Shown here: one piece after another, positions 1,557 to 42,623 of the stretch
Numbering within the stretch: the first letter of the stretch is position 1
Layout of the letters: the number at the start of each line of letters is the position of its first letter
From: Akkermansia sp.
GTDB lineage: Bacteria > Verrucomicrobiota > Verrucomicrobiia > Verrucomicrobiales > Akkermansiaceae
Length of the DNA: 64,000 nt
NCBI GenBank assembly: GCA_017471985.1
Contig: JAFURE010000103.1
Location: 1-64,000 of the forward strand
Reading direction: 5' to 3'
Made by a program: the position numbers and the translations under genes
Notes under the pieces: generated by a model
The model's database searches: none
Seen by the model: the letters and a program-made list of their open reading frames with translations, nothing else
What the model was told of the DNA's origin: nothing

Positions 1557-2525
1557 ATGAGCGATATGAGCAATAAACTGAGGTGGCCCGGGGCAGAGTG
1601 GGACGTGTCGGGCGCGTTTGCCAAGGATGCGGTGCTGCTCCGATTTCATGATTTCTGCCGGGATCACCTGGGCTATGCGCCCTTTGCTGTGGTGCACGGT
1701 TCACCCCTGTTCCGCTGGAATTGTGGTCGAGTGCTCAGTATGTTGCAGCGCAGTGACAAGGAAATTAACACCGCCGCCGCGGCATACGTGAAGCGCGGCA
1801 TTCCGGTGGACCTTACCTTCACCAACCCGAAACTGCGCGAGGAAGACATGAAGAACATGCTCGGCAACCGCCTGCTGAGTTTCTTTGCCGCGCAGAGCAC
1901 CCCTCAGGTACGCCATGCCGTCATCATCGGGTCCGATACTCTCTATGCGCACGTGAAGACTAATTATCCGCAACTCGGCACGGTATCCTCCATTCTGCGC
2001 ATTACCTGCGATGGCGGTAAGGGCAAGCTCGACTCCTACCTGCGCCTGGCCGAGCGCTATGATAAGGTGATGATTCACCCGGATGATGTGTTCAACTACG
2101 ACATGCTCGAAAAAATGGAGGATAAGGGGCGCTATGAGCTCATACTGAATGAGTACTGCATGCGTAACTGCCCCATGCGCGCCTTTCATTACACCACCAT
2201 GGCCGAGCAGGCCTATGATATTGATGGTTACGATACCACCAAATTCTACAAAGCCCTGGAGCGCAATGGTTGCCAAAATCTGCCCGCCATGCTGACCGAC
2301 CCGGCTGTGGGGGTGTCGGCCCTTACCACGCCCGAGATTGACCGCCTGTACGACATGGGATTCCGCAAGTTCAAGCTGCAGGGGCGTGCCCACCCGAATG
2401 CCCTGCCGCTCATCAATGATTTGTTGCGTTTCATGCTGCCGCCCGGCAGCGCGCAGGATACACTGTGGCTGAGCCTCTGCTCGGCCTTTCTGGAAAGTTT
2501 TACCCCCCTTACCACCGAGGCATGA
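1557..2525 (+). CDS. U32-peptidase-like protein, first of a paralogous pair
   Basis: A 322-residue soluble protein with no signal peptide or membrane helix. The clearest motif is NEYCMRNCPMRAFHY near residue 200. It resembles the Asn-Glu-x-Cys-x3-Cys-Pro-x-Arg-x3-His signature of TIM-barrel proteins related to the U32 peptidase/UbiU-UbiV group, where cysteines can bind an iron-sulphur cluster. The C-terminal part (GFRKFKLQGR) fits the last barrel strands of that fold. Other cysteines are present (for example FCRD and WNCGR), but a full cluster set cannot be assigned by eye. The stop codon overlaps the start of the next gene, a paralogue, so the two products are probably made together. Substrate and reaction are unknown. 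ATG 1557 is used; ATG 1566 is also possible. Confidence 0.55.
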   Translation: MSDMSNKLRWPGAEWDVSGAFAKDAVLLRFHDFCRDHLGYAPFAVVHGSPLFRWNCGRVLSMLQRSDKEINTAAAAYVKRGIPVDLTFTNPKLREEDMKNMLGNRLLSFFAAQSTPQVRHAVIIGSDTLYAHVKTNYPQLGTVSSILRITCDGGKGKLDSYLRLAERYDKVMIHPDDVFNYDMLEKMEDKGRYELILNEYCMRNCPMRAFHYTTMAEQAYDIDGYDTTKFYKALERNGCQNLPAMLTDPAVGVSALTTPEIDRLYDMGFRKFKLQGRAHPNALPLINDLLRFMLPPGSAQDTLWLSLCSAFLESFTPLTTEA

Positions 2526-3511
2526 AAACTGATTTTCTGACACAGGATTACCTGCCGCAAGCTGCCTGGAGCCTGAGTGGCGGCCTGTTACACGGCTATT
2601 GCATGGTGCAGCTCTGCGAGGGTATGGCAAAGGAAATGAAGGACATACGCAGCATGAAAGCGCTGCATATCACCCCCGCTTGTTCGTGGAGTCTGGACTG
2701 GCATGTGCAGCGCTCCATGACAACCCCGACCGCCTATCTGCACCTGCTGGGGCATACAGATGCCATTAAACAGCCGCTCTGCCTGAACTTCGACAATCCC
2801 TATGTGGCCAAGGCTATGGTTGAGGATGCCTTTGGCCTGTTTCTGGTCGATGAATTGCTGCGCCATAACCCCACGGGGCAGAATTGTGTGGCTGTGGCCG
2901 ATGACCGCGTGGCCTTTGTTCTGCGCCGTCAGTTCCCCACTCTGCGTATCATTGCCCACATGAATCGCTCTGTCTGCGAGGAGGGGGAGCCCGATGCCGA
3001 CTTCTGCAATCGCCTGCTGGAGGTTTATCACGAGGTACAGCTTTACCCCGGCAGTCTGCGCTACCCCGGTCTGGTGCAGGCTCTCAGCCATCCCGAGCGT
3101 TGTACCGTAGTGGTGAATGACCTTTGCCGTCGCGGCAGCCGTGCGGCTCACAGTCAGGCGCTGCTCTTACTGGCGCAGATGCGTGTACGCCCCTACGACT
3201 TCAACTACAAGGTGCGCCGTAGTGAGCAGATGTCGGCTCTTCTGGCACCCCCGGGAGCCCCGGCTAATATGTTCTCGCGTTCAGAACTGCAGACCCTCTA
3301 TGCGCAGGGGCTGCGCTCCTTCCATGTGCAGGCCGAGCAGTACCGGAATGCCATGACCCCGGCCTGGTTGTTCATGAATTACCTGCTCACGGACTCCCCT
3401 CAATACAGCAACAAGACATCGCTGCTCATCTACAAGGTGCTCAGCTACCTGACCGGCGACACTCCCTCCCTCGCCAGTGGTCTGGAGCCTTTCCCCATGC
3501 GCTGGGATTGA
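2522..3511 (+). CDS. U32-like paralogue, coupled to the preceding gene
   Basis: A 329-residue soluble protein starting in an ATGA overlap with the upstream stop (2522-2525). Layout and several motifs follow the upstream paralogue: a strand-rich N-terminal half, a motif VVNDLCRRGSRAAH at the place of its NEYCMRNCPMRAFH, and a late GLRSFHVQAEQ matching GFRKFKLQGR. The second cysteine and the proline of the Cys-x3-Cys-Pro motif are replaced by Gly and Ser here, so this copy may not bind a metal cluster in the same way. Two diverged subunits of one complex is the simplest reading, as in UbiU-UbiV, but this is inference. The fold is supported only by the pairing and the shared motif; the function is unknown. 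Confidence 0.5.
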   Translation: MKTDFLTQDYLPQAAWSLSGGLLHGYCMVQLCEGMAKEMKDIRSMKALHITPACSWSLDWHVQRSMTTPTAYLHLLGHTDAIKQPLCLNFDNPYVAKAMVEDAFGLFLVDELLRHNPTGQNCVAVADDRVAFVLRRQFPTLRIIAHMNRSVCEEGEPDADFCNRLLEVYHEVQLYPGSLRYPGLVQALSHPERCTVVVNDLCRRGSRAAHSQALLLLAQMRVRPYDFNYKVRRSEQMSALLAPPGAPANMFSRSELQTLYAQGLRSFHVQAEQYRNAMTPAWLFMNYLLTDSPQYSNKTSLLIYKVLSYLTGDTPSLASGLEPFPMRWD

Positions 3512-3569
3512 GGAAGTACGAGGGACCCGTCTCCGCGTCTCGCTGCGCTCGCTTGCTACGCCGTGGCAG

Positions 3570-4046
3570 GCTGCGGGCTTTGCCCGCCAAATATGAGAAC
3601 CCGCGCTTGCGCGGGTGGTATATGGTAGCCGGGCGGCGTAAGCCCCCGGTCAGCAATGGAAAATATATTGGAACCCGCACAGGGTGCGGGTGGCATAAAC
3701 GGTGGCTCTGATATAATGCGGTGAATACATGGCGATATTTTGCATCAACGGTTTATGCCACCCACACAAGTGTGGGTTCTCATTTTTTTATTATCGGTTA
3801 CCTTGGGCTTACGCCCAAGGCTATTATATGTCACCCGCGCAAGCGCGGGTTTTAAAGTATGGCTCCCGTCTTCGGCTTCGCCTACGCTGAGGCAGGCGCC
3901 TTCGCTCGCTAGGGATAAATATCTTTTTAACGGCCTGCGGCCGAGTGAAAAGCGGGCTGAAGCCCGCGGTGAAGAACCGGCTGCGCACGGTGGTGAAGAA
4001 TGCGCTGCGCGCATGGTGAAGACCAAGGCTGACGCCTTGGGGTACA
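3570..4046. repeat. Field of unrelated perfect hairpins with constant linkers (non-coding)
   Basis: The 580-base stretch between 3511 and the tRNA holds no convincing gene. It is filled with short perfect palindromes, each with a different stem. They are GCGGGC-ttt-GCCCGC (3573-3587), CCCGCGC-tt-GCGCGGG (3600-3615), ACCCGCAC-agg-GTGCGGGT (3673-3691), CCCACAC-aa-GTGTGGG (3761-3776), CCTTGGGC-ttac-GCCCAAGG (3801-3820), ACCCGCGC-aa-GCGCGGGT (3833-3850), GCGGGCT-ga-AGCCCGC (3952-3967), ATGCGC-tgc-GCGCAT near 4000, and CCAAGGC-tgac-GCCTTGG (4023-4040). Linkers recur: GGTGAAGAA between the last ones and GTGG after several others. GGGTGGCATAAAC (about 3687-3700) returns inverted near 3750-3763, so part of the field is inverted on itself. 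Confidence 0.75.
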
Positions 4047-4052
4047 TAAAGA

Positions 4053-4088
4053 AAAATCCCTTTCATACCGAAGCATGAAAGGGATTTT
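4053..4088 (-). terminator. Rho-independent terminator after tRNA-Leu
   Basis: AAAATCCCTTTCAT (4053-4066) pairs perfectly with ATGAAAGGGATTTT (4075-4088) around an 8-base loop. Read on the minus strand it ends in a T-rich run just past the tRNA 3' end. The A/T tails on both sides make it potentially bidirectional. Confidence 0.85.
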
Positions 4089-4091
4089 CTA

Positions 4092-4173
<82 letters not shown>

Positions 4174-4284
4174 ATGGGTTTTGCACTTGGTGCGCCGCAA
4201 CTATACACGAGTGCGGCGCAGAATGCAAGCCTTTTTTTGCAAAAAAGTGCAATTTTTTTGATTTTTTGTCAGAAAAGGGGTGTG

Positions 4285-4680
4285 TCAGTGGCGTTTTGAG
4301 CCGGCGTAGGAGCCGTTTTTGTTGTAATAGCGGGTATTGTTGCCGCTCTTTTCGGCGCTGCCGGAGTATGAACCGTTCTTGTTATAGTAGCGGGTGGAGT
4401 TACCGCTCTGCTGAGCGCTGCCGGAGTATGAACCGCTCTTGTTGTAGTAGCGGATGGTATTGCCGCTGCGCTGGGAGCTGCCGGCGAAAGAGCCGCTCTT
4501 GTCGTAGTAGCGGGTGGAGTCGCCGTTGTGCTCGGCACGGCCGATGTAGGAGCCGCTCTTGTCGTAATAGCGGGTGGTGTTGCCGCTGCGCTCAGTGCGG
4601 CCTACATTGCTGCCGTTCGGACCGTAAAAACTGTCTGCCATGACCGGCAGTGCCAACAGAAGAATGAGAAGGGGTTTCAT
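4285..4680 (-). CDS. Secreted 20-residue tandem-repeat protein
   Basis: A 131-residue protein with a short signal peptide (MKPLLILLLALPVMA) followed by five repeats of 20 residues. Each repeat has the core RYYxKxGSYxGxAxxSGN, rich in Gly, Ser, Asn and Tyr; the last ends GSYAGSKRH. The DNA repeats with a matching 60-bp period, so copy number could vary by recombination in frame. Such Gly/Ser/Tyr repeats suggest an exposed or matrix-like role, but no function is recognised. It is transcribed divergently from the eight-gene membrane-protein array, and the two share a 120-bp control region. Confidence 0.7.
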   Translation of the reverse strand: MKPLLILLLALPVMADSFYGPNGSNVGRTERSGNTTRYYDKSGSYIGRAEHNGDSTRYYDKSGSFAGSSQRSGNTIRYYNKSGSYSGSAQQSGNSTRYYNKNGSYSGSAEKSGNNTRYYNKNGSYAGSKRH

Positions 4681-4750: not shown

Positions 4751-4779
4751 TTGCTGCGTGTTGATTTATCTGCTAGAAT
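4751..4779 (+). promoter_or_regulatory. Promoter of the eight-gene membrane-protein array
   Basis: TTGCTG (4751-4756), a 17-base spacer and TAGAAT (4774-4779), 21 bp before the first start at 4801. No terminator or gap longer than a few bases occurs until 12444, so this promoter could drive all eight genes. Confidence 0.55.
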
Positions 4780-4800: not shown

Positions 4801-5676
4801 ATGAAACTGACCGATACCGACCTGGATGTGCGTGACCGCGAGTGGGTGGAGAGCGTGCTGCAGGCAGACGAAGAACTGCTGCTGCTGTGCAAGCCGCAGG
4901 TACGTCTGTGGCGGGCGGGGTATCTGCCCATGGCTCTGTTCGCAGCTCTGTGGCTGGGCATCATTGGCACTATATCATTTTTCACTGTTCGGGAATGTCT
5001 GGAGTGCGTGCAAGAAAAGCCCGGCTTGCTGCTTATGGTGTTGTTTCTGGTGCCGTTCTGGGTGGTGGGTATCGGTTTTGTGCACAGCCCGTGGAGACGG
5101 CGTGAGCTGGATCGCCGTACGGTATACCTGCTGACCAACAGGCGGGCAGTGGTGCTGCGCCCGTCAGAGTTCCGTTTTCGCCCCACACAGAAGGATTACC
5201 CGCTGGAACATGGTATGATTAAAGAGGTGCAGGAGAAGCGGGACGGCAGTGGCAGCCTGGTTTTCGGCTACGAGGTACAGCAGACAAAAGGCGGTGAGAA
5301 CTATCTGCCCGTGGGATTTCTACATGTGCCGCAGTTGCAGCGGGTGAGAGATATTCTGCTCAGCGCCTTGCAGGAGTTTGCCGAACCTCAGCAGCCTGCG
5401 GTTGCTGTAACACCCGAGCCGCAAGCAGAAGCCCCCTCACGCATACTCCTCGTGGTTGCCTCCATCATTATAGCGATAGGTTTGAAAGAAATGACGGAGT
5501 CTGTAACGACCTTGCTGGAAAGGGCGGGTAATCCGGCTGAGTGGTTGTTTGAGTTGGTTGCTCCTTCGATGTTAAGCGGTTTTGGTAGTGTTTTGCTTAT
5601 CGCCTGGTTCAGGGATTACAGGAAGTATACGCGGCAATATCAACAATATAGCGATAGCAAAGGAGCCGCAGAATGA
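4801..5676 (+). CDS. PH-like membrane protein, array copy 1
   Basis: A 291-residue protein, first of eight tandem paralogues. Order of parts: a short cytosolic head ending in EELLLLCKPQ; two adjacent membrane helices (about 43-63 and 75-96); a PH-like module introduced by RRELDRRTVYLLTNRRAVVL and closing with VGFLHVPQLQRVRDIL; a Pro/Ala/Glu-rich linker (about 195-215); then two further hydrophobic segments (about 217-240 and 253-275) and a Tyr/Lys/Gln-rich tail. There is no DUF3592-like domain. The LYLLTNRRAxVL strand pattern resembles the bacterial PH family (bPH_2/bPH_3) found in YdbS/YdbT-type membrane proteins. No enzyme motif is present. The stop overlaps the next start (ATGA). Role unknown; topology is an estimate. 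Confidence 0.7.
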   Translation: MKLTDTDLDVRDREWVESVLQADEELLLLCKPQVRLWRAGYLPMALFAALWLGIIGTISFFTVRECLECVQEKPGLLLMVLFLVPFWVVGIGFVHSPWRRRELDRRTVYLLTNRRAVVLRPSEFRFRPTQKDYPLEHGMIKEVQEKRDGSGSLVFGYEVQQTKGGENYLPVGFLHVPQLQRVRDILLSALQEFAEPQQPAVAVTPEPQAEAPSRILLVVASIIIAIGLKEMTESVTTLLERAGNPAEWLFELVAPSMLSGFGSVLLIAWFRDYRKYTRQYQQYSDSKGAAE

Positions 5677-6254
5677 TGTCGAATACGGAATTGAGTGCAG
5701 GTGAGCGCCGACGTCTGGACGATACCTTGGGGGCGGATGAACGGCTGCTCCTGGCGGTGAAACCGCGCTCGGATGTCGAGGATGAGCGGTCAACGGTGGA
5801 GCGTATTGTCGGTACTTTTTTTCTGGTGATATGTTTGGGGGTAACCATTGGCATGGCCGAGGAAAACCCCATGGCCTGTATCCTGATGTTGCCGGCATGG
5901 ATTTCCGGTTTGCTGGGCTTTTTTCTGCCGAATATACGCCGTAAGCGTCGCCGGCTTACCCTGTACGCGATAACGGACAGGCGGGTGTTGATATGGGAGC
6001 CGAATCGCTGTATGGTGCTGCGGTTGCGCTCAATCCCGCTGCGGGCTGATATGATTCAGGAGGTAGCCTGTTTACCCGCCGGTTACGGCAATCTGGTATT
6101 TGACTACTCTTGGGATGAATGGAACGGCGCTCGCGAAGAACGCGTGGCCAAACAGGTGGGATTTATCGATATCCCTCAGGTTAAGCGCGTGCAGACCGTG
6201 CTCGAGTCTGCCATCGCTGAATATGAACGAAAATACAACAACTTGCGTCGATAA
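5673..6254 (+). CDS. PH-like membrane protein, array copy 2 (short form)
   Basis: A 193-residue protein, the shortest and most diverged array member. It keeps the head (ADERLLLAVKPR), two membrane helices (about 36-54 and 60-78) and the PH-like module (RLTLYAITDRRVLIWEP to VGFIDIPQVKRVQTVL). It then stops after a charged helix, with no linker, late membrane helices or DUF3592-like domain. It begins in an ATGA overlap with copy 1 and is followed 2 bases later by copy 3. Either it is a trimmed paralogue or it represents the minimal unit of the family. No disruption is seen, so it should be made. Confidence 0.65.
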   Translation: MMSNTELSAGERRRLDDTLGADERLLLAVKPRSDVEDERSTVERIVGTFFLVICLGVTIGMAEENPMACILMLPAWISGLLGFFLPNIRRKRRRLTLYAITDRRVLIWEPNRCMVLRLRSIPLRADMIQEVACLPAGYGNLVFDYSWDEWNGAREERVAKQVGFIDIPQVKRVQTVLESAIAEYERKYNNLRR

Positions 6255-6256
6255 TC

Positions 6257-7099
6257 ATGAATACTGAAGATTGGGAGATGAGCCCGCAGGGTGCAGCTCG
6301 AGTGCGGGAGTTGCTGCAGCCCGGCGAGGAGTTGTTGCTGGTGGTGAAGCCGGCTACCGGGCTGAATGTCGCAGCAGCAACAGGCGATTGGGTGATCGGT
6401 GCTGTGCTGTTGGGCTGTGTGGGTGGGATTTGTTGGCTGTGGTGGGGTGCCATTGTGGATATCTGGTGGTATTATATGCTCGCCTCGTCACCCTTTCTGG
6501 TGATGGGAACGGCCATCATCTGTTCTCCCCTGCTGAAGCGGTGGCGCGTGGGGCATACACTGTACCTGCTCACGAACCGCCGCGTGGTTATGTCGATTCC
6601 CCGTCTGTTTGCACGGGACAGCGTGCGGGAGTTTGTGCTGAATCCCAACCCGGTTAAGCGGGTATGCTACGCCGATGACGACAGCGGCGACATCGTATTC
6701 GCGTATGATACACCTCGTGTGTTCGGGCTCCGGCGTAAGCCGCTCCCCGTGGGATTTCTGTCTGTGCCGCAGGTGGAGCGTGTGGCTCAGCTGATTGCTC
6801 GGCAAGTTGTAGCTCAGGGTGGAGCGCGCACCGAGGATGAGGTGCTCCCTCCAACGGATTTCTCTCAATATCCGCAGTTGCTGCCGGAAAGCCGCTCGGT
6901 ATGGCTGTTGTTCGGGGTGATGGTTACGCTGTTTTCTGTGGGGCTTGCTGTCTTTGGGGGATATCAGCTGCTGAATCTGCTTGAGGAAGGAGACTGGCAT
7001 TTGCCGTTTTTTGCGTTGCTGAGCCTATTGTCTGCCATGGTGGGAATTTATATCGGCGGGGGAATGTTGGCCGATAGTCTGAAACGCCCGAAAGAATAA
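6257..7099 (+). CDS. PH-like membrane protein, array copy 3
   Basis: A 280-residue paralogue of the array. The head MNTEDWEMSPQGAARVRELL ends in GEELLLVVKP. Membrane helices lie at about 37-58 and 64-86. The PH-like module runs from RVGHTLYLLTNRRVVMSIP to VGFLSVPQVERVAQLI. After a linker there are two late hydrophobic segments (about 214-238 and 247-270) with a Gly-rich end, and no DUF3592-like domain. Architecture is closest to copies 1 and 4. It sits 2 bases after copy 2 and 5 bases before copy 4, so it belongs to the same transcript. Function unknown. Confidence 0.7.
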   Translation: MNTEDWEMSPQGAARVRELLQPGEELLLVVKPATGLNVAAATGDWVIGAVLLGCVGGICWLWWGAIVDIWWYYMLASSPFLVMGTAIICSPLLKRWRVGHTLYLLTNRRVVMSIPRLFARDSVREFVLNPNPVKRVCYADDDSGDIVFAYDTPRVFGLRRKPLPVGFLSVPQVERVAQLIARQVVAQGGARTEDEVLPPTDFSQYPQLLPESRSVWLLFGVMVTLFSVGLAVFGGYQLLNLLEEGDWHLPFFALLSLLSAMVGIYIGGGMLADSLKRPKE

Positions 7100-7104
7100 G
7101 TACC

Positions 7105-7917
7105 ATGGAAAATCTGCCCCCACGAGATGCCGCCCGTGCGGCTGCAGCCCTGCAGGCGGGCGAAGAGTTGTTGCTGGTGGTGAAACCGCGCTCGGCTCCG
7201 GGGGCTGATTTATATTTTCAGATGCTGCCCGGCGCGCTGATGGTGGCAGTTCCGGTTGGCGTTATGTGGACTTTGCAGGAGCTTGGATGGGTGCCGATTT
7301 TTATCGGGATGCCCTTCCTGCTTTTGGGCTTAACGGCGCTCAGTTCCCCCTGGCGATATCGGTGGCGCATGCAGCGCACGCTCTACCTGCTCACCAATCA
7401 CCGAGCGATTGTACTGGAACCACGCCGGTTCCGCATGCGTGTGCGGGCGTTTGCACTTCATCCTGACTTGGTAAAGCAGGTGGTGGCCGAACCGGCCGGG
7501 CATGGTGATATCATTTTTGCGAGGGAACGCCGATGGCAGTTCGGTGCGCGCAGTATTTACTATGGCTTGAGCCCGGTGGGATTTCTGGCCGTGCCGCAGG
7601 TGCAGCGTGTGGCGCAGATGATTGCTGAACTGACCGATTCCATATTGCCTTCGGCAGAACCGACTACGGCGTCGCAAGTGCCTGTTCGCACGGTGCAGAA
7701 CCCCGTGCAGTCCATGATTTTCGGCGCGGTGTTTATCCTCGTGACGACAGCGGTTGCCGTGGCGGGGGGCTGGTGCTTTGTGGCCGATGTGCTGACGAAT
7801 GGCTTGAGTGTTGATATATTGCCCGGTCTGATAATTGTTTTGGGTGGGGGATTCATGAGCCTTGTCGGGTGGTATATCCTGCTCGATGCTATCAAAGAAA
7901 AAAATAAAAAGAACTGA
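7105..7917 (+). CDS. PH-like membrane protein, array copy 4
   Basis: A 270-residue paralogue. The head LPPRDAARAAAALQAGEELL is very like copy 5. Two membrane helices (about 38-76) precede the PH-like module, which runs from RMQRTLYLLTNHRAIVLEP to VGFLAVPQVQRVAQMI. Two late hydrophobic segments (about 199-222 and 233-258) and a basic tail (KEKNKKN) end the protein. The DUF3592-like domain is absent. The GHGDIIFARERRWQ segment inside the module has close counterparts in copies 5 and 8 (GYGDI), marking these as nearer relatives. Function unknown. Confidence 0.7.
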   Translation: MENLPPRDAARAAAALQAGEELLLVVKPRSAPGADLYFQMLPGALMVAVPVGVMWTLQELGWVPIFIGMPFLLLGLTALSSPWRYRWRMQRTLYLLTNHRAIVLEPRRFRMRVRAFALHPDLVKQVVAEPAGHGDIIFARERRWQFGARSIYYGLSPVGFLAVPQVQRVAQMIAELTDSILPSAEPTTASQVPVRTVQNPVQSMIFGAVFILVTTAVAVAGGWCFVADVLTNGLSVDILPGLIIVLGGGFMSLVGWYILLDAIKEKNKKN

Positions 7918-7923
7918 CTACTG

Positions 7924-9105
7924 ATGAATACGGAACAATGGGGACTGAACCCTCGGGATGCAAGTCGCGCCTCTGCTGCCCTGCAGGCGGGTGAAGTGGT
8001 GACGCTCGTGGTGAAACCGCGGGCCAAAATGGATCCTATCATGGTGTTTCTGCGTGTGGGCAGTGGCTTGCTGCTGATTGCGTGGCTGCTGTTTGATGGG
8101 GTGACGGTCGATTGGGCTCTGTTGTGTGCACTGTGGGTGCTGGCTGTGCTTTTGCTTATCTCCCCCCTGTGGCACCGTCGGCGCATGGAGCGCACGCTCT
8201 ACCTGCTGACTTCTCGCCGTGCCCTGGTGCTGGAGCCCGGGTTGTTGTGGGGTGAGCGCATGGGCTCCTACCCACTGTACCCCAACCCGGTGCAGAAAGT
8301 GGAGCGCTATCGGGATGGCTACGGAGATATCGTGCTGGGCTATGAAATGCGCTGGTCCCCCGGGCACATCTTTTACCGCACCAACGGTGGCGGACTTGCC
8401 GGGGATATGTTCCGCCGCCGCAGGGTGAGTGTGGGTTTCATGAATGTGCCGCAGGTGGATGAGGTATACGCTCTTTTTTCTGCGCAGGTAGCGGCAGCTG
8501 TGCCCGAGGGATTGCCTGCCACGCCCGCTGCTGCACCTGCTCCTGTTCCCGCACCGGTAGGGCGCAGGCCGATTGAGTTCGGCGAGTGGGAAACGAATGC
8601 TGTCGACACGACCACCCCGCAGGCACTCATGGGCTTCGGTACGGTTATCAGCATAATCGCGGCGGTACTGCTGGCTGTGGGGATTTTCCTGCTGCACTCT
8701 GACCGTCAATTCGAAGCTGCCTGTGTGAAAACGCAGGGTACTGTGGTGAATGTGCGGCAGAAGACTGAGGTAAAGCACACGCGCAGCCGCCAACGTGGTT
8801 CCGGTGTTTCCATTCAGGTGGGAGGGAGCTCAACAGGGAACTCAGTCACGACTTATTATCCCACCCTTTGCTTTACAGATAGTGCCGGGGCCATTCATTA
8901 TTATGAGTCCGACTACGGCAACCGCGAACCCGGCTACTATACCATAGGGCAACAGCTCACGCTGCGCTATTTGCCCTCTGACCCCACAGATGTGCGAATA
9001 GAAGGGGAATCCAACCTGGGCATGCTGCTGACGGTCATCAGTGGTTTGGTGCTGGTGATAGGTGGCGGTTTGTTGGCCGGCGGTATCATGATGCGAAAGA
9101 AATGA
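7924..9105 (+). CDS. PH-like plus DUF3592-like membrane protein, array copy 5
   Basis: A 393-residue protein, the longest member. The N-terminal half follows the array plan: head MNTEQWGLNPRDASRASAAL, two membrane helices at about 38-82, and a PH-like module from RMERTLYLLTSRRALVLEP to VGFMNVPQVDEVYALF. A Pro/Ala-rich linker leads to a membrane helix (about 239-259). Next is a soluble domain with GTVVNVRQKT, YYPTLCFTDSAG and IGQQLTLRYLPSDPTDVRI, the pattern of DUF3592. A final hydrophobic segment (about 363-388) ends in MMRKK. The DUF3592-like part probably faces the periplasm between the two late helices. Its end overlaps copy 6 by ATGA. Confidence 0.75.
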   Translation: MNTEQWGLNPRDASRASAALQAGEVVTLVVKPRAKMDPIMVFLRVGSGLLLIAWLLFDGVTVDWALLCALWVLAVLLLISPLWHRRRMERTLYLLTSRRALVLEPGLLWGERMGSYPLYPNPVQKVERYRDGYGDIVLGYEMRWSPGHIFYRTNGGGLAGDMFRRRRVSVGFMNVPQVDEVYALFSAQVAAAVPEGLPATPAAAPAPVPAPVGRRPIEFGEWETNAVDTTTPQALMGFGTVISIIAAVLLAVGIFLLHSDRQFEAACVKTQGTVVNVRQKTEVKHTRSRQRGSGVSIQVGGSSTGNSVTTYYPTLCFTDSAGAIHYYESDYGNREPGYYTIGQQLTLRYLPSDPTDVRIEGESNLGMLLTVISGLVLVIGGGLLAGGIMMRKK

Positions 9106-10211
9106 ACAAGATGAAAACAGACCGTGACGCGGCGGATATCGCACTGTTTCGGGCGGTGCTTAAACCGCACGAGAATGCACTGCTGGTGGTAAGCCCTCAG
9201 GTGAAACCGGCCGGCAATAAGGCCGTGCGCCGTGCCATCTGCGGGGCGCTGTTGCTGGTGCTGCTGAGTGGGGCGGTGCTGTGTATCGACTCCTTCCGTT
9301 GGGTGATATCGCTGATGTTGCTGCCCCTGTGGGTACTGGCCTTGGTGTGGCTGAGTGCACCGCAGCGTGCGCGCGCGCGAACGGCTCGCACTCTCTGCTT
9401 GCTGACCAATCACCGTGCTCTGGTGCTGCAGCCGACGGCTATGGGCTATCGTTGTGTCACCTGGCCCTTGTATGAGGGGGTGGTGACAGAGGTTAAGCCG
9501 GCTGCGGATGGCTCGGGCAGCATTCTGTTTGATCGCAGCATGCACCAACATTACCCGGCCTCGCTCCGGCGTTCTCTGCCCGGCGGTTTTGAAGCCGTGC
9601 CACAGGTGGAGCGTGTGTTGCAGCTGATTGCGGAGCAGGTGGCCATGGCCAATCGAGAGCATGAAACGGAGACCGAGCTCCTGTTCCCTCAGCGCGGTAC
9701 GGTGACGACTCTGGATGCCGACGGGCATTTCCTGAAAGATTCCGCCGATACTCCGAAGGAGTACAGCGCCTCCCCCGGTATTGTGCTGGGCTCGTGTTTT
9801 GCTCTCTTGGCTTCCTTGTTTATGTGGGGTGTCCTGCCGTCATTGCGGATGGATATGCGGCTGGAGGCCGAAGGTGTGTCTGCCCGGGGTACAGTGGTGA
9901 GGGTGGAGTCGTCACTCTCCAGCGATAAGACCCTCTCGTATTTCCCGGTGGTTCATTTTACCCCGGCCGATGGTGTGGTGCGAGAGTACCGCTCGTCTTA
10001 CGGTTACTCGGCTACAGAATACTCTGTCGGCAGCAAGGTGGAGCTGCGCTACCTGCCGACAGACCCCACGCAGGTGCGCTTGGTTGGCGAACGGGGAGTG
10101 ACGGTGCTGATTCTGCTGTTCAGCGCGGCCTTTTTCTGGTTGGGGGTGATTATGGCCGGGCGCGGTGTTATTTTGTATTGGAGAAGGAGATATTATCATG
10201 AGTCTTTCTGA
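9102..10211 (+). CDS. PH-like plus DUF3592-like membrane protein, array copy 6
   Basis: A 369-residue paralogue starting in the ATGA that overlaps copy 5; ATG 9111 is an alternative. Two membrane helices (about 43-84) are followed by a PH-like module from RTARTLCLLTNHRALVLQP to GGFEAVPQVERVLQLI. Then come a linker, a helix (about 224-245) and a DUF3592-like domain (GTVVRVESSL, YFPVVHFTPADG, VGSKVELRYLPTDPTQVRL), and a last membrane segment. The head is more diverged than in copies 3-5 and lacks the NTExW start. The end overlaps copy 7 by 14 bases. Function unknown. Confidence 0.72.
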   Translation: MNKMKTDRDAADIALFRAVLKPHENALLVVSPQVKPAGNKAVRRAICGALLLVLLSGAVLCIDSFRWVISLMLLPLWVLALVWLSAPQRARARTARTLCLLTNHRALVLQPTAMGYRCVTWPLYEGVVTEVKPAADGSGSILFDRSMHQHYPASLRRSLPGGFEAVPQVERVLQLIAEQVAMANREHETETELLFPQRGTVTTLDADGHFLKDSADTPKEYSASPGIVLGSCFALLASLFMWGVLPSLRMDMRLEAEGVSARGTVVRVESSLSSDKTLSYFPVVHFTPADGVVREYRSSYGYSATEYSVGSKVELRYLPTDPTQVRLVGERGVTVLILLFSAAFFWLGVIMAGRGVILYWRRRYYHESF

Positions 10212-11295
10212 ATGGGGATTAAATCATAGGGATGCCAAACGACTGCAGCAGGTATTGCAGGATGACGAACGCGTGGTGATGGTCGCCGCACCCCGCCGGC
10301 AGATGCCGCTGTCGGACTCCTTCGGGCCGGTGCTTCTGGGGCTGGTGCTGCTGGCATTTTCGGGTGGCACGGCCTATCTGTTCGGTAAGATGTGGTGGGT
10401 GGCGGTGCTGTTCTTCAGCCCGTTCTGGTTGTTGGCTCTGGTGTTCCTCAGTGTGCCGTTACGCTATAGTTGGCGTATGGCTCGCACGCTGTATGTACTG
10501 ACGGACAAGCGGGCTATTGTGCTGGAGCAGCTGAGCCTGTGGCGCAGGCGCTGTGTGTGCTGGCCTCTCTTCCCCGGACTGGTGAAGAAGGTGGCGAAAG
10601 AGGGCCATGACCTGGGTAGCTTGATTTTTGACTACGAAATGCGCTTTTCCTTCGAATCCCGCCGGCGGCGCTATGTGCCCTGGCCTGTCGGTTTCCTCAT
10701 GGTGCCGCAACCGGAGCGGGTGCAGCAGTTGGTGGCAGAACAGGTGGCAGCCATTCCCGCAGAGCAGGCTCCCTTTGCCTATCGTCCCCCGGTCTTGAAA
10801 ACGCCTGCCCCTAAGCTCGATGCCTGGGGAACCCCGCTCGCAGAGCAACCTTGGGATAAGAAGAATGACAGGCGCTTTTTCCTGATATTCGGCGCGGCGT
10901 TTGTGTTCTTCGGCTTGCTGGGACTGGGGCAGGGCGTCCTCAGACTGCATACCGAGAGCCGACTGGAGGCTGAGGGCGTGCAGGCTACCGCTACGGTGCT
11001 GAAGGTAAGGACAAGTGGCAGCAATGGCAGAGGGCACAGTGAGTCCTATTATCCCACTCTGCGGTTTACGGATGCCGTAGGGCGTGTGCAAACGGTTGAT
11101 TATCATATCGGTACCGATAACTATCCTGTGGGCTGCAAGCTCCCGATAATCTACCTGCCCACCGACCCCGAGAGCCTGCGTATCGAGGAGCCCGGATTGA
11201 GCCCGGGTGTGGTTTCTGTGCTGGGTGGGGTGATTTTTGCGTTTGTCGGGGGCGGAATCCTCATTTTTGGTTACAGAATGAAAAAGAAGAGTTAA
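10198..11295 (+). CDS. PH-like plus DUF3592-like membrane protein, array copy 7
   Basis: A 365-residue paralogue. The start at 10198 is chosen because MSLSEWGLNHRDAKRLQQVL aligns with the heads of copies 3 and 5 and because a strong GGAG-type ribosome site (GGAGAAGGAG) lies just upstream, rare in this window. Layout: two membrane helices (about 40-82), PH-like module (RMARTLYVLTDKRAIVLEQ to VGFLMVPQPERVQQLV), linker, helix, DUF3592-like domain (YYPTLRFTDAVG, VGCKLPIIYLPTDPESLRI), last helix and a KKKS tail. Its own ribosome site hints that later genes of the array are boosted independently of upstream coupling. Confidence 0.74.
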   Translation: MSLSEWGLNHRDAKRLQQVLQDDERVVMVAAPRRQMPLSDSFGPVLLGLVLLAFSGGTAYLFGKMWWVAVLFFSPFWLLALVFLSVPLRYSWRMARTLYVLTDKRAIVLEQLSLWRRRCVCWPLFPGLVKKVAKEGHDLGSLIFDYEMRFSFESRRRRYVPWPVGFLMVPQPERVQQLVAEQVAAIPAEQAPFAYRPPVLKTPAPKLDAWGTPLAEQPWDKKNDRRFFLIFGAAFVFFGLLGLGQGVLRLHTESRLEAEGVQATATVLKVRTSGSNGRGHSESYYPTLRFTDAVGRVQTVDYHIGTDNYPVGCKLPIIYLPTDPESLRIEEPGLSPGVVSVLGGVIFAFVGGGILIFGYRMKKKS

Positions 11296-11301
11296 TAGCC
11301 G

Positions 11302-12411
11302 ATGGAAGATACTGATATGAAGCGTGTGCAGGAGCTGCTGGCAGAGAATGAGGAGGCGCTGCTGGTGGTGCACCCCCGCATGCCCCTGAGCAGTGGCAGG
11401 ACCTTTCTGCTGCTTCTGCCGACCGGTTTTGCTCTTTTGTGGGTACTGTGGGCGGCAGTGTCACTGGGGAGTGATTGCTGGGTGGCGCTGTTGTCGGGGC
11501 TGCCTTTTCTGCTGATTGGGGCGCTGTTCGGCATATCGCCGTTGTGGCACCGCTTGCAGATGGCGCGCATGGTGTATGTGCTCACGAATCGGCGTGTGGT
11601 CATTTCCGAACCTCTCGGGCTGCACGGGAGCCGCTGCGTGAGTCTGCCCCTGCGCCCGAACCCGGTGCTGAAAGTGGTGAAAAGGCAGGGCGGCTACGGC
11701 GATATCATTTTTGCCTGGGAGCGCCGTTGGCAGCTCGGGGCTCGGGTGTACAGTCTGGTCTCGCCCGTGGGGTTCATGGATGTTCCGCAGGTTACCCGTG
11801 TGCTGCAGATGCTCGAGGAACAGGTGGCGGCTCTGCCCGAGGATGCTGCCCTGTCGGCTGTCGAGGGTGTGGAACCCCTGCCGATGGACGGACGCGGCCG
11901 GCCGCGTGTGCTGACCGTGGAGCGAGAGTTTGCGCTGTGGGTAGGGGGCGCCTGTTGCGGTGTTTCCCTGCTGCTGTTGCTGTTGGGGGCTGCGGCATTG
12001 CCGCGTGAGCTGGGATTTAAGGAGAACGCTGTCACGACCACGGCCACGGTGTTGAGCCTGCGCCGCGAGCTGCACGATTTCTCCCCACATGTTCTCAGCG
12101 AGAAGGTTTGGATGACGCAGCGCAACGGTGTGCGCCGGGCATTTTTTGCCATGTACTACCCCACCGTACGCTTTACCGATGAAAAGGGGCGTACTCACAC
12201 CGTGGAATGCCCGGTGGCTCAGCCGACATCCAAGCTGCCACCCAACAGGCAGATGACCATCAGCTACCACCGCCGTAACCCCGAGTGGCTGGCTATGGGC
12301 AAACCCTCGCGCCGCGGAATTACCTTCTGCATTCTGAGCATGCTGGCTTTCGTGGTGGGCGCGGCTATTGCCTCCGCCGGGCTCATCCGCCACCCGAAAT
12401 CAGGTACCTAA
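11302..12411 (+). CDS. PH-like plus DUF3592-like membrane protein, array copy 8
   Basis: A 369-residue paralogue and the last of the array. The head is short (MEDTDMKRVQELLAENEEAL). Two membrane helices precede a PH-like module (RLQMARMVYVLTNRRVVISEP to VGFMDVPQVTRVLQML). After a linker and a helix, the DUF3592-like domain is partly worn: it keeps YYPTVRFTDEKGRTHTVE, but the usual YLPTDP ending is YHRRNPEWLAM and an insertion separates its first strands. A final hydrophobic segment ends the protein. A strong terminator follows 33 bases after the stop, closing the eight-gene transcript. Confidence 0.72.
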   Translation: MEDTDMKRVQELLAENEEALLVVHPRMPLSSGRTFLLLLPTGFALLWVLWAAVSLGSDCWVALLSGLPFLLIGALFGISPLWHRLQMARMVYVLTNRRVVISEPLGLHGSRCVSLPLRPNPVLKVVKRQGGYGDIIFAWERRWQLGARVYSLVSPVGFMDVPQVTRVLQMLEEQVAALPEDAALSAVEGVEPLPMDGRGRPRVLTVEREFALWVGGACCGVSLLLLLLGAAALPRELGFKENAVTTTATVLSLRRELHDFSPHVLSEKVWMTQRNGVRRAFFAMYYPTVRFTDEKGRTHTVECPVAQPTSKLPPNRQMTISYHRRNPEWLAMGKPSRRGITFCILSMLAFVVGAAIASAGLIRHPKSGT

Positions 12412-12443
12412 GCCCTGTTCCTGCACCCCTCATCCCCTCTCCT

Positions 12444-12477
12444 GAGCTGTGCCGATGATGGTGCAGCTCGTTTTTTT
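12444..12477 (+). terminator. Terminator of the eight-gene array
   Basis: GAGCTGTGCC (12444-12453) pairs with GGTGCAGCTC (12460-12469), with two G-U pairs and a 6-base loop, followed by seven T. Confidence 0.88.
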
Positions 12478-12780: not shown

Positions 12781-13701
12781 TCAAAATTCGTCCTCATCGT
12801 CATCCAATGCGCGCGGGTGGGCGTCGAGGTAGGCCTGTTTCATGCGGGTTTTGGTGACGTGGGTGTAAATCTGGGTGGTGGAAAGGGAGGCGTGGCCGAG
12901 CAGTTCCTGTACGGCTCTCAGGTCGGCGCCGGCATCGAGCATGTGGGTGGCAAAGGTGTGGCGCAGTTTGTGGGGGGATATGTGGAAGGGCAGGTCGGAG
13001 CAGCGCAGGTACTTGTCGAGCATGAGCTGCACGCTGCGGCCGGTCATGCGGCGGCGCAGTCGGCTGAGAAAGAGGGGCCCCTGCGGGTCGAGCCCGGCGC
13101 GCAGGCGGTAGTTCTGAACGGCCTCGCGGGCATAGTCGCCCACGGGAACCAGGCGCTCCTTGCGGCCCTTGCCCAGCACGCGCACGCAGTCCTCACCGGG
13201 TTGCAGGGCGTCGGCATTCAGCCCGACAAGCTCGCTGAGTCGTATGCCGCAGGAATAGAAGAGCTCCAGAATGGCGGCATCTCGGTACGGCAGCCAGTCC
13301 GGGCTTTTCTTGTCCACCGGGGTGCGCAGGGGCAGGGAGAGCAGGTCCTCCATCTGCCGCAGGCTCAGGTGCACGGGCAGGCTGTGGCGGGCTTTGGGCA
13401 GGGTGACTTCGGCCAGTGGGTTGACGGCCAGTCCCTCCCGGCGCATGAGGTAGGTATAGAGCGAGCGCAGCGCGGCAAATCTCAGGCGGATGGAGGCGGG
13501 CTTGAGCTGCTGCTGCATGGCCTCGTATAACCAGCCGCGAAAACTCTCGCTGCTGCAGTCATGCCAGCTCACGAAGCGCGGTCCCATCCACTCCCGGAAC
13601 TGCTGCAAGGTGCGTCGATAGGCCGCCAATGTGTGGGCCGAGGCGGTTTTCTCCACCTCCATATACGCCAGAAAGCGCTCTGCTATAGCCTCGGGTGACA
13701 T
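12781..13701 (-). CDS. xerC: XerC/XerD-type tyrosine recombinase
   Basis: A 306-residue recombinase of the size and layout of chromosome-dimer resolvases. It has an N-terminal SAM-like core-binding domain (residues ~1-90, with EKTASAHTLAAYRRTLQQF) and a C-terminal catalytic domain. Active-site residues: Arg in YSCGIRLSELVGL, Lys in VLGKGRKERLVPV, HxxR in HKLRHTFATHML, His in LLGHASLSTTQ and Tyr in IYTHV. The LSTTQIYTH wording and DAHPRA near the end favour XerC over XerD. It would act with a partner on a dif site; neither is in the window. A small inverted-end element (13714-14252) is inserted 12 bp before its start and may have displaced its original promoter. Confidence 0.85.
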   Translation of the reverse strand: MSPEAIAERFLAYMEVEKTASAHTLAAYRRTLQQFREWMGPRFVSWHDCSSESFRGWLYEAMQQQLKPASIRLRFAALRSLYTYLMRREGLAVNPLAEVTLPKARHSLPVHLSLRQMEDLLSLPLRTPVDKKSPDWLPYRDAAILELFYSCGIRLSELVGLNADALQPGEDCVRVLGKGRKERLVPVGDYAREAVQNYRLRAGLDPQGPLFLSRLRRRMTGRSVQLMLDKYLRCSDLPFHISPHKLRHTFATHMLDAGADLRAVQELLGHASLSTTQIYTHVTKTRMKQAYLDAHPRALDDDEDEF

Positions 13702-13713
13702 GGGGGATTTTAT

Positions 13714-14252
13714 AATTTACGATTTACGATTTACAATTTACAATTTACAATTTACAATTTGGAAATTCGGCGGCTGCGCCGCGGGGATTATTCGACAATA
13801 TTTTGGCGTTTTGTTTTGATAGACGCTGTGATGATAGCTGTGAGCTGACGGGCTTCGTCTGAAAGGTCCAGTAGAAGTTCTTTGCGTACCAATCCGCTGT
13901 TTGCGAGCAGTTCAAGCCAATAGACTGTCTCATCTGCTTCTTCTTCACATATTTTCAGCTTGTTCAGAAAGTCATTGGCACTTTTAGCTATGCAGGCTGC
14001 TCTGTAATTGGCGCCGATGGAAGTACCGGAGCGCAGAAGCTGATGGGCTAAAACCCGGGCAGCTCCGCCTTTCCCCATCAGTTTCTCACTCAGGTGAATG
14101 ATGCGTAGGGCAAATTGTTGGGTTCTACTAATCAGCTCTTCTCGGGTCATACAGTTGAGAGTGAAAAAACAGTTCGGCGACTACGCGCGTGCTATACGCG
14201 GTGCAGCCGCCGAACTTTTTACATTGTCAATTGTAAATGGTAGATTGTAAAT
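13714..14252. mobile_element. Small element with inverted ends carrying a four-helix-bundle gene
   Basis: Left end: six 7-bp units of the type AATTTAC/GATTTAC (13714-13755), then TTCGGCGGCTGCGCCGCG (13766-13783). Right end: CGCGGTGCAGCCGCCGAA (14197-14214), whose reverse complement matches the left block at 17 of 18 bases. It is followed by ATTGTAAAT-type units (about 14224-14251), the reverse complement of the left repeats. The two ends are thus inverted copies about 540 bp apart. The only gene inside encodes a four-helix-bundle protein; no transposase is present. A second hairpin, GTTCGGCG to CGCCGAAC (14172-14215), lies at the right end. Target duplication is not evident. Confidence 0.7.
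13788..14150 (-). CDS. Four-helix-bundle protein (S23/IVP family)
   Basis: A 120-residue all-helical protein with the family pattern: an early RIIHLSEKLM helix, then LAHQLLRSGTSIGANYRAAC, the EADETVYWLELL helix, and a last helix ending in TASIKT. This matches the four-helix-bundle family first described from intervening sequences of 23S rRNA genes, and related to the accessory protein of diversity-generating retroelements. No reverse transcriptase or variable repeat is nearby. The protein is basic and may bind nucleic acid; its role in the element is unknown. It is bracketed tightly by the element ends (13714-13783 and 14197-14252). Confidence 0.85.
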   Translation of the reverse strand: MTREELISRTQQFALRIIHLSEKLMGKGGAARVLAHQLLRSGTSIGANYRAACIAKSANDFLNKLKICEEEADETVYWLELLANSGLVRKELLLDLSDEARQLTAIITASIKTKRQNIVE

Positions 14253-14261
14253 ACTACTGAT

Positions 14262-15083
14262 TTACTTCTTGCCGGCGATTCCCATGGTGTAGCCGTTGTA
14301 CTCACGCATGTTGTACAGGGGCTGACCTTCGGGAACAGCGTAGCCGATGTTCTTGCGAATCTGCAGGAAGTCGGCAATACCGGCCTCGTCCACCTGATTC
14401 AGGCCGCCACCGTGCAGGTCGGCAAAGAGTACCATCTTGCAGTAGGCGTCGGCGTTCTCCATGAACCACTCAGCTTCTTCGATGTGGCGGGCACCGGTAA
14501 TGACACCGTGGTTCTCCATGAACACAACGGTGCTCTGGTGGCAGGCCTTGGCCACGGCCTCGGCGGTCTCGGGCGAGCCGGGGGTGCCGTAGGGGGCCAG
14601 CGGAATGTGCCCCAGGAAGATGTCGGCCTCGGGGTTGATGCCGTTGGGCGGTACTTTGCCGGCAAAGAGGAAGGCATTGCAGCAGGGGGGATGAGCATGG
14701 ATGCAGGCGTTCACGCCCACCTCCTTCATCATGGCGATGTGGGTCTTCACCTCGCTGGTGGCGGGGCGATAGCCGCAGAGCTGACCGGCATTCATGTCGA
14801 CCAGACAGATGTCCTCCACCGTCATGAAGCCCTTGGAGCAGAGGGTGGGGGAGCAGAGCACCAAATCCTTCGCTACGCGAACAGACAGGTTGCCGCCATT
14901 GCCGTCCACGTACTCGCGGGCCCACAGGCGGCGGCCCATATCCACCATACGCTCCTTAATCACCAGGATTTCGGGGCTGTTGAAAAATGCATCGATTTCT
15001 TCACGCGTCTGCGGATCGTACTTCTCCCAGGGGAAAATGCGGTCAGGCAGCGCCGGCTTTATGTATAAATCAGGATTAGCCAT
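14262..15083 (-). CDS. Class II aldolase (rhamnulose/fuculose-phosphate type)
   Basis: A 273-residue zinc-dependent aldolase of the class II/adducin family. Visible motifs: REYVDGNGGNLSVRV (substrate phosphate binding), the two-His metal motif in NACIHAHPPCCNAF, and a third His in VVFMENHGVITGA. Glu in the substrate pocket is expected from this family; TSEVKTHIAMM provides a candidate. Reactions in the family cleave fuculose-, rhamnulose- or ribulose-phosphates to dihydroxyacetone phosphate or glycolaldehyde phosphate plus an aldehyde. Fucose from mucin is a plausible source in this organism, but the substrate cannot be fixed here. It is monocistronic, with the four-helix element just downstream. 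Confidence 0.8.
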   Translation of the reverse strand: MANPDLYIKPALPDRIFPWEKYDPQTREEIDAFFNSPEILVIKERMVDMGRRLWAREYVDGNGGNLSVRVAKDLVLCSPTLCSKGFMTVEDICLVDMNAGQLCGYRPATSEVKTHIAMMKEVGVNACIHAHPPCCNAFLFAGKVPPNGINPEADIFLGHIPLAPYGTPGSPETAEAVAKACHQSTVVFMENHGVITGARHIEEAEWFMENADAYCKMVLFADLHGGGLNQVDEAGIADFLQIRKNIGYAVPEGQPLYNMREYNGYTMGIAGKK

Positions 15084-15208: not shown

Positions 15209-15237
15209 TTGACTTCTGGCTATGGTTCTGGTAGATG
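15209..15237 (+). promoter_or_regulatory. Promoter of the PEP-tail protein
   Basis: TTGACT (15209-15214), a 17-base spacer and TAGATG (15232-15237), leaving a ~70-base leader before the start at 15315. Confidence 0.5.
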
Positions 15238-15314
15238 TCATACCAAATGGGAAGGAAAAGCTGGATGGTAGGTTTTTACTTCTCTGTATAACTAATCGTA
15301 ACTTTTACATTTCA

Positions 15315-16010
15315 ATGAAAAAGACACTTTCGCTTCTTGCTGCCGCGGCTCTCGTGCTGAGTGCTGCCCCCGGCATGGCCGAGACGATAGAGCTACTGCC
15401 GAATTTTTCCTTCCAATCAGTAATAAAAGGTGCAACGATAGCTCCGGGTGCGACTCTCATCAATACCACTACCGGGGGCATGGTTATATACGATATCAAT
15501 ACTACTGATCTAAAGATTGAGCCCCCATTTAATACTTCTGACGGTACTGTATACTGGGGGGTTGAAATTTACGACCCCAAGAAGTCCGCGGTTGTTTCTC
15601 TGAAGGATGTTGCGGTAAGCGAGGGTGATGAAATTGTGCTTAATTTTACCACATGGTATAGCGGTGGCGGTGCCGGAATGGGCGGTCCTGTTGACAAGGA
15701 ATATTTTGTAATCATGTTCCGTTCTATGACTGGTGAAGGAGATAACTTTTCTACTTGGTATGATGAGGGTGGAAAAGATATTCCCATAACCGCCCGGTTT
15801 CTAAACGGTACGTATGAGGCTTATATCATCGACGAAACCTGTGATCAGGCAGATCCTGCATCGACATGGGGTGGGTTGGTGTTCTTCCGCGCGAATGACG
15901 TAGCTCCGAAGGTGCGTGATGCTGAGGTATTCCCTGTTCCGGAGCCCACCACGACCACACTGAGTCTGCTGGCTTTTGCCGGTTTGGTCATGCGTCGTCG
16001 TCGCAGATAA
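15315..16010 (+). CDS. Secreted protein with PEP-CTERM-like sorting tail
   Basis: A 231-residue exported protein. It has a signal peptide (MKKTLSLLAAAALVLSAAPG to MAE), a beta-rich body and the C-terminal tail VPEPTTTTLSLLAFAGL followed by VMRRRRR. That tail is a PEP motif, a hydrophobic helix and an arginine run, the form typical of Akkermansia and relatives. PEP-CTERM tails are processed by exosortases in other phyla; no exosortase gene is in this window. An upstream in-frame GTG/ATG extension to 15222 exists but would place the signal peptide internally, so 15315 is used. The body (Gly/Thr-rich, with WGVEIYDPK and RANDV) could be a lectin- or sandwich-like domain; no family is recognised. 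It has its own promoter and terminator. Confidence 0.85.
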   Translation: MKKTLSLLAAAALVLSAAPGMAETIELLPNFSFQSVIKGATIAPGATLINTTTGGMVIYDINTTDLKIEPPFNTSDGTVYWGVEIYDPKKSAVVSLKDVAVSEGDEIVLNFTTWYSGGGAGMGGPVDKEYFVIMFRSMTGEGDNFSTWYDEGGKDIPITARFLNGTYEAYIIDETCDQADPASTWGGLVFFRANDVAPKVRDAEVFPVPEPTTTTLSLLAFAGLVMRRRRR

Positions 16011-41046: not shown

Positions 41047-41130
41047 CTCATCTGAATGTGTTAATAATGACGTTGTAAGGATAAACAACCCCTTGCGATA
41101 ATATCACATGGCATTACACATTCAGATGAG
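41047..41130 (+). promoter_or_regulatory. 15-bp inverted repeat spanning the start of the PA14-like gene
   Basis: CTCATCTGAATGTGT (41047-41061) is the exact reverse complement of ACACATTCAGATGAG (41116-41130). The second arm is codons 3-8 of the gene that starts at 41108, so a transcript beginning upstream could fold the start region into a loop. An inner GTTGT/ACAAC hairpin (41072-41089) exposes AAGGA in its loop. The paralogue at 42624 has the same 27 coding bases but no upstream arm. Confidence 0.6.
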
Positions 41131-42454: not shown

Positions 42455-42568
42455 AAAAAGTGGGTCATATACTTACTGTTCTCGCTCTTATCGAGAGTCA
42501 GCAGTCCGTTTTTTGAAGCTGTAACAGTTTTTTAACACTTTTCGGGGATTTTCTGCTCGCTTTAGCGT

Positions 42569-42585
42569 ATTCTACGTGGTAGAAT
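42569..42585 (+). promoter_or_regulatory. Palindrome over a -10-like box before PA14 paralogue 2
   Basis: ATTCTAC (42569-42575) and GTAGAAT (42579-42585) form a perfect 7-bp dyad around GTG. The right arm contains TAGAAT, a likely -10 hexamer, 39 bp before the start. A protein bound here would block the promoter. Confidence 0.45.
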
Positions 42586-42623
42586 GCCCTCGTTAGGAAA
42601 AATTTCAACCGTTATTATTACCT

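Follow-up and report, generated by a model that had tools for sequence, protein, structure and literature searches.

A conserved tandem array of eight paralogous PH-hairpin membrane protein genes, four of them with a DUF3592-like domain, in Akkermansia sp.

The 64,000-nucleotide stretch of Akkermansia sp. DNA analysed here (contig JAFURE010000103.1 of assembly GCA_017471985.1; the window), which belongs to an Akkermansia-type genome of 2.5 Mb, carries at positions 4801-12411 of its + strand an array of eight co-directional, near-overlapping open reading frames (ORFs) encoding paralogous membrane proteins. The ORF calls reproduced the gene coordinates and spacing given in a preliminary description of this DNA, the intergenic distances from copy 1 to copy 8 being -4, +2, +5, +6, -4, -14 and +6 bp. 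The terminator placed there at 12444 was recovered as a strong intrinsic terminator after copy 8 (12443-12470, + strand; a 12-pair stem followed by T7). The promoter proposed at 4751 was not recovered by the promoter scan: the site TTGCTG-17-TAGAAT (4751-4779, + strand), read by eye and under the scan threshold, has only 3/6 and 5/6 matches and is weakly promoter-like. The eight copies probably share one transcript.

All eight proteins contain a common PH-hairpin unit, a PH-like domain with two transmembrane (TM) helices, and differ in what follows it. Copy 2 (P0002, 193 aa; 5673-6254) consists solely of this unit, while copies 1 (P0001, 291 aa; 4801-5676), 3 (P0003, 280 aa; 6257-7099) and 4 (P0004, 270 aa; 7105-7917) add two late TM helices and nothing else, exactly as had been described. 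In copies 5 (P0005, 393 aa; 7924-9105), 6 (P0006, 369 aa; 9102-10211), 7 (P0007, 365 aa; 10198-11295) and 8 (P0008, 369 aa; 11302-12411) the unit is followed by TM3, a DUF3592 domain (diverged in copy 8) and TM4. The assignment of DUF3592 (PF12158) to these four copies is supported, albeit with the Pfam gathering cut-off of 25.3 bits passed by copy 6 only (residues 262-330, 9885-10091; 35.8 bits). Copies 5 (residues 270-362, 8731-9009; 22.0 bits), 7 (residues 264-330, 10987-11187; 21.5 bits) and 8 (residues 281-328, 12142-12285; 16.5 bits) score below it and still align along the domain, and the structural model of copy 7 contains the expected small beta-domain.

Pairwise identity among the copies is 27-41%. 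When they are aligned, every copy retains the Glu and Pro of the head together with the LTxRR strand and GFxxxPQ, confirming the head, LTxRR strand and VGFxxVPQ closing motif originally noticed in all eight; the residues invariant in 8/8 copies are E24, P32, T112, R115, G172, F173, P177, Q178 and V182 (P0001 numbering). A profile built from the eight copies retrieved additional members from the same genome (E 3e-26 to 5e-7), so the copies form a true family; chance resemblance among them is ruled out by this profile together with the phylogenetic tree described below.

PH-like domains are common in bacterial membrane proteins, where their roles are mostly unknown, and solved PHb rings have prompted the idea that membrane-bound PH-like proteins form pores or transporters. 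Apart from weak PuhB matches, neither Pfam nor NCBIfam puts a name to the part common to the copies. This common unit was assessed from confident AlphaFold (AF2) models, made with alignments of relatives as input, of copy 2 (ma39bc9ad7027; predicted local distance difference test (pLDDT) 91, predicted template modelling score 0.82) and copy 7 (m0230b0a7a7d5; pLDDT 88). Copy 2 equals the first part of copy 7 alone, and in both models strand beta1 is followed by the TM hairpin, strands beta2-beta7 and a C-terminal helix, i.e. seven strands and a helix. In copy 7 the first strand spans residues 26-30, the hairpin lies at ~38-95, and six strands and the helix extend to residue 185; the C-terminal part comprises a long helix (224-259), five strands that correspond to the DUF3592 region (261-329), and one final helix. 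A Foldseek search of the PDB with the copy 2 model returned solved PHb proteins at ranks 1-4 and 6-10. This model aligned across the hairpin with both 3hsa (Z 8.5, 4.1 Å over 109 residues; model residues 1-182) and 3dcx (Z 8.4, 3.5 Å over 100 residues), and the copy 7 model matched 3dcx with Z 6.7. Since the best matches of copy 2 are PHb domains and span the hairpin, the common unit, as modelled, is a PHb domain whose beta1-beta2 connection has been opened by a TM hairpin. The PH-like identity proposed earlier is thus borne out at the level of the fold. The PHb1 core has a conserved buried Glu31 with Thr47 and Arg50 three residues apart (PMC2817789); E24, T102 and R105 of the copies (P0007 numbering), invariant or nearly so, appear to form a similar pattern when compared in sequence. 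A Glu/Thr/Arg core is present in the PF08000/DUF1696 PHb proteins (3dcx, 3hsa and 3b77; PMC2817789), which share the PH-like fold of the models; these proteins lack a TM hairpin and are soluble, forming homo-oligomeric rings.

Two sequence bridges agree with this identity. A profile comparison (hhalign) of the family alignment with three bPH_2 proteins shows remote homology of the PH part (E 7e-7, probability 91.8, 88 columns), and L055:1817-3553, a related protein made of three units, scores 25.4 bits against bPH_3 (cut-off 23). Sequence searches for solved relatives gave nothing meaningful, and a viral structure search with the copy 2 model yielded no match below E 0.001. A likeness of the C-terminal part of copy 7 to BK-channel beta4 subunits (Foldseek E 4.9e-4, TMq 0.23; Z 7.2-8.2 but 7-9 Å root mean square deviation) was judged to reflect shared topology (a TM helix, an outside domain and another TM helix) rather than homology.

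Lysine and arginine are scarce in the loop of the TM hairpin (0-2 residues), number 4-9 in the ~30 residues after TM2, and, in the seven copies longer than copy 2, reach 2-5 in the C-terminal tail. Under the positive-inside rule this distribution suggests a cytoplasmic PH domain and a periplasmic DUF3592 domain, the latter flanked by TM3 and TM4. Like other DUF3592 proteins, copies 5-8 bear the domain between two TM helices; the difference is that here it is fused behind a PH-hairpin unit in four successive paralogues. No functional study of DUF3592 was found in the literature searched, and the array points to a likely location for the domain, outside the membrane on a PH-hairpin scaffold.

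We compared the array with the closest named Akkermansia metagenome-assembled genomes, all from the ruminant gut (sheep, L052; dairy cattle, L053; water buffalo, L054). In 3/3 it occupies the same place, with the divergent gene for the repeat protein on one side and the genes for class II aldolase and XerC on the other, and with five copies in sheep, five in cattle and six in buffalo (eight in the window). In a maximum-likelihood tree of 66 units, with the sheep and buffalo arrays entered as L033 and L032, copies 1, 2, 7 and 8 form 1:1 groups with both of these arrays, in the same order and with 99-100% bootstrap support; the same four recur at the same place in cattle. Copies 3-6, among which copy 3 is the sister of copy 4, are extra in the window and are placed by the tree near the copy 7/8 lineage. 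One extra copy follows copy 2 in cattle and buffalo, and a further last copy is present in sheep and buffalo. Order is conserved for copies 1, 2, 7 and 8, and copy number varies. The orthologous pairs of these core copies show an omega of 0.16-0.46 (with synonymous changes near saturation in the wider pairs), and the core copies are under purifying selection. Copy 8 of the sheep array, by its alignment with the orthologues, has lost the greater part of DUF3592 and kept both flanking helices, which illustrates a route by which copies 1, 3 and 4 could have come to carry two late helices only.

These results support the claim that the copies diverged after duplication. Given their fold, and the conserved order and selection in the relatives, the copies are neither members of unrelated families nor a single gene accompanied by recent identical duplicates, the two outcomes against which the preliminary description had set its reading. 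Duplicates of the latter kind, free of constraint, are ruled out by the 27-41% identity of the paralogues and the purifying selection on the orthologues. The nearby integrase gene (6-1424) and tRNA-Leu (4091-4174) could mean that the array is a cassette, mobile or of phage origin, that inserted beside them. We find this barely credible, since related species share its neighbours (repeat protein, aldolase and XerC, plus, in L052 and L054, the pair of genes to its left), and since the protein of copy 7 was unmatched in 50,697 phage records and that of copy 1 in 72,556 plasmid records; with zero matches for the one copy searched in each set, a phage or plasmid origin was rejected.

The build is not unique to this locus: other Akkermansia have variable tandem arrays both here and at other sites. 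Within the genus, family matches number 0-21 per genome. A second site, by the glycyl-tRNA synthetase gene, holds up to eight genes, most of them short and PH-only (L034); the genome of the window has two family genes there (L076). A third type of array consists of DUF3592-only genes beside one PH-only gene (L044, L045). Outside the genus, among 288 sampled genomes from the phylum, the matches are mostly single genes of ~190-200 aa with no consistent neighbour, tandem pairs being present in L121 and L124. Natural fusions were found as well, with two units in a 408-aa chain from an Akkermansia of another type (L125:5726-6952) and three in the Thiotrichales protein that matches bPH_3 (L055:1817-3553).

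Such a distribution could result from a lineage-specific expansion of paralogues whose products act independently, every one having a partner or ligand of its own, the clustering being due to duplication and not to assembly. PuhB, for example, is thought to act as an assembly factor or scaffold for the photosynthetic complex, and the copies could serve as similar factors or scaffolds for different envelope proteins. The very variable copy number in the genus and the mostly single units without a consistent neighbour outside it would fit this explanation, as would the position of copies 3-6 near the copy 7/8 lineage, which later tandem duplication would give, and weak matches of copies 2, 3 and 8 to the NCBIfam PuhB model (NF040894) that cover the head, the TM helices and the first strands of the PH domain. 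These matches do not amount to PuhB membership (13-22 bits, the best being 21.7 for copy 8, vs a cut-off of 110), and the photosynthesis context of PuhB is missing here. On the other hand, separate action is hard to reconcile with positional 1:1 orthology in an order conserved across ~50% protein divergence, with near-zero spacing, with the two- and three-unit fusions, and with the PH-only and DUF3592-only genes of related arrays. We regard it as a doubtful but serious explanation.

Our literature search found no paper on such arrays in Akkermansia. The statement that there is no described system with this build overlooked the YdbS/YdbT-type loci, for which a transport role has been published (PMC8657885). 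These bPH_2 loci include B. subtilis ydbST, enterocin DD14 ddEF, aureocin A53 orf7-8 and lacticin Q lnqCD. YdbS has one unit and YdbT three fused units with six TM helices, the two being co-encoded, and deletion of either of the co-encoded PH proteins DdE and DdF blocks the export of enterocin DD14 (PMC8657885). The likeness extends to the building block (two TM helices plus a cytoplasmic PH-like domain) and to the encoding of several units together. In contrast to these loci, the array has eight separate genes, four of them with a predicted extracytoplasmic DUF3592 domain; its units possess a beta1 strand before the hairpin and have no direct Pfam match to bPH_2 (PF03703), which had zero matches among the eight copies or in the window's genome (Pfam hidden Markov model); and it is found in Verrucomicrobiota with no bacteriocin genes recognised beside it. 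The array is real, conserved and unusual, and it is not a categorically new system, PH-hairpin membrane proteins being already known. Its architecture and evolution have good support, and its proposed function is drawn from analogy.

A possible, though not yet probable, reading is that the products of the eight genes come together in a single hetero-oligomeric assembly in the inner membrane, its PH domains lying inside and its DUF3592 domains outside. It would resemble a subdivided form of the YdbS/YdbT system, whose PH-hairpin proteins export membrane-active peptides or protect against them. Each subunit would have a cytoplasmic PHb domain with the TM hairpin in its beta1-beta2 connection. 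The eight units would pack side by side via their PH domains, as expected from solved PHb homologues, which form edge-to-edge rings (C5 and C12; PMC2817789), and the hairpins would make up the membrane part. Copies 5-8 would each contribute a periplasmic DUF3592 beta-domain, carried by a further pair of helices that flank it. Core copies 1, 2, 7 and 8 are kept in order, the remaining copies being lineage-specific additions that would alter the composition. An assembly is the most economical account because the core copies keep their order and have separate orthologues, and because genes overlap; it is further favored by the two- and three-unit fusions, the adjacent PH-only and DUF3592-only genes and the ring habit of PHb proteins, the fusions and DUF3592-only genes in related arrays being compatible with a hetero-oligomer.

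The presumed function of such a complex would be to move amphipathic, membrane-active peptides or lipids at the envelope, or to exclude them. This role, which we propose with clearly less confidence than the assembly itself, is suggested by analogy, since YdbS/YdbT are the closest counterpart and DdE and DdF are both needed for bacteriocin export. Several points weigh against the assembly or its role. Copy number varies in the genus (0-21 family matches per genome), so no fixed stoichiometry would be required; no Pfam bPH family was matched directly by any of the eight window copies; and neither a bacteriocin-like gene nor an ABC transporter was recognised next to the array. Assigning transport to a Gram-negative commensal would also mean extrapolating from loci of Gram-positive bacteria, where the PH proteins in turn share just 17-18% identity with YdbS/YdbT. 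The more specific version, an undescribed Akkermansia envelope machine of up to eight different PH-hairpin subunits, with a PH ring inside, DUF3592 domains outside, a conserved four-subunit core, interchangeable accessories and a composition tuned between species by tandem gain and loss, appears rather unlikely. If the assembly is real, some gut Akkermansia carry a variable envelope system, possibly bearing on their tolerance of membrane-active compounds. The series from single gene through tandem pair and fused two- or three-unit chains to an eight-gene operon would offer a direct test of whether the units co-assemble.

PH-hairpin proteins belong to leaderless bacteriocin loci, and have been linked to immunity and transport (PMC11580447, PMC8657885). 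The copies might form a poly-immunity or resistance array in which each variant guards against its own membrane-active target, be it a toxin, a bacteriocin or a peptide of the host, with the gut favoring diversity; the variable copy number and presence would fit this. We consider this quite improbable, given that no toxin or bacteriocin gene was recognised beside the arrays, that the core copies are conserved under purifying selection, and that the sole PADLOC match is weak. That match (DrmE, copy 5; E 0.025, 10.6 bits) was also the only one obtained for an anti-phage defence system, which was rejected.

The XerC and aldolase genes (window 12781-15083) are inverted relative to the array when compared with L052-L054. 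A PEP-CTERM family gene lies between copies 7 and 8 in L053 (8843-9526) and L054 (11390-12151), and its homologue in the window (15222-16010) is located outside the array. In another Akkermansia (L040, 3645-8381), a PH/DUF3592 array adjoining the same aldolase gene is broken by an ATPase-like gene (MENKVRELNRSFACIMVIGARQVGKST...), a homologue of which is found in L053 (11279-12553) between copy 8 and the aldolase.

Upstream of the array and divergent from it, a gene on the - strand (4285-4680) encodes a repeat protein of 131 aa whose start resembles a signal peptide; it contains units like NGSYSGSAEKSGNNTRYYNK and has no Pfam match. Its homologues hold the same place and orientation in L052, L053 and L054, repeat number and copy number differing among the relatives. 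Further to the left (1557-3511) are two adjoining genes for ~325-aa proteins, distant mutual paralogues without a Pfam match, the first with LNEYCMRNCPMRAFHY; in L052 and L054 such a pair lies in synteny next to the array, and the second gene has diverged homologues across the genus. The region 3540-4070 contains a cluster of short G+C-rich palindromes (e.g. gcgggctgaagcccgc and cttgggcttacgcccaag), read by eye, that resemble the repetitive extragenic palindrome type. Another tandem duplication is present at 41108-43976, where two adjoining genes encode paralogous membrane proteins of ~450 aa (MALHIQMSE...).

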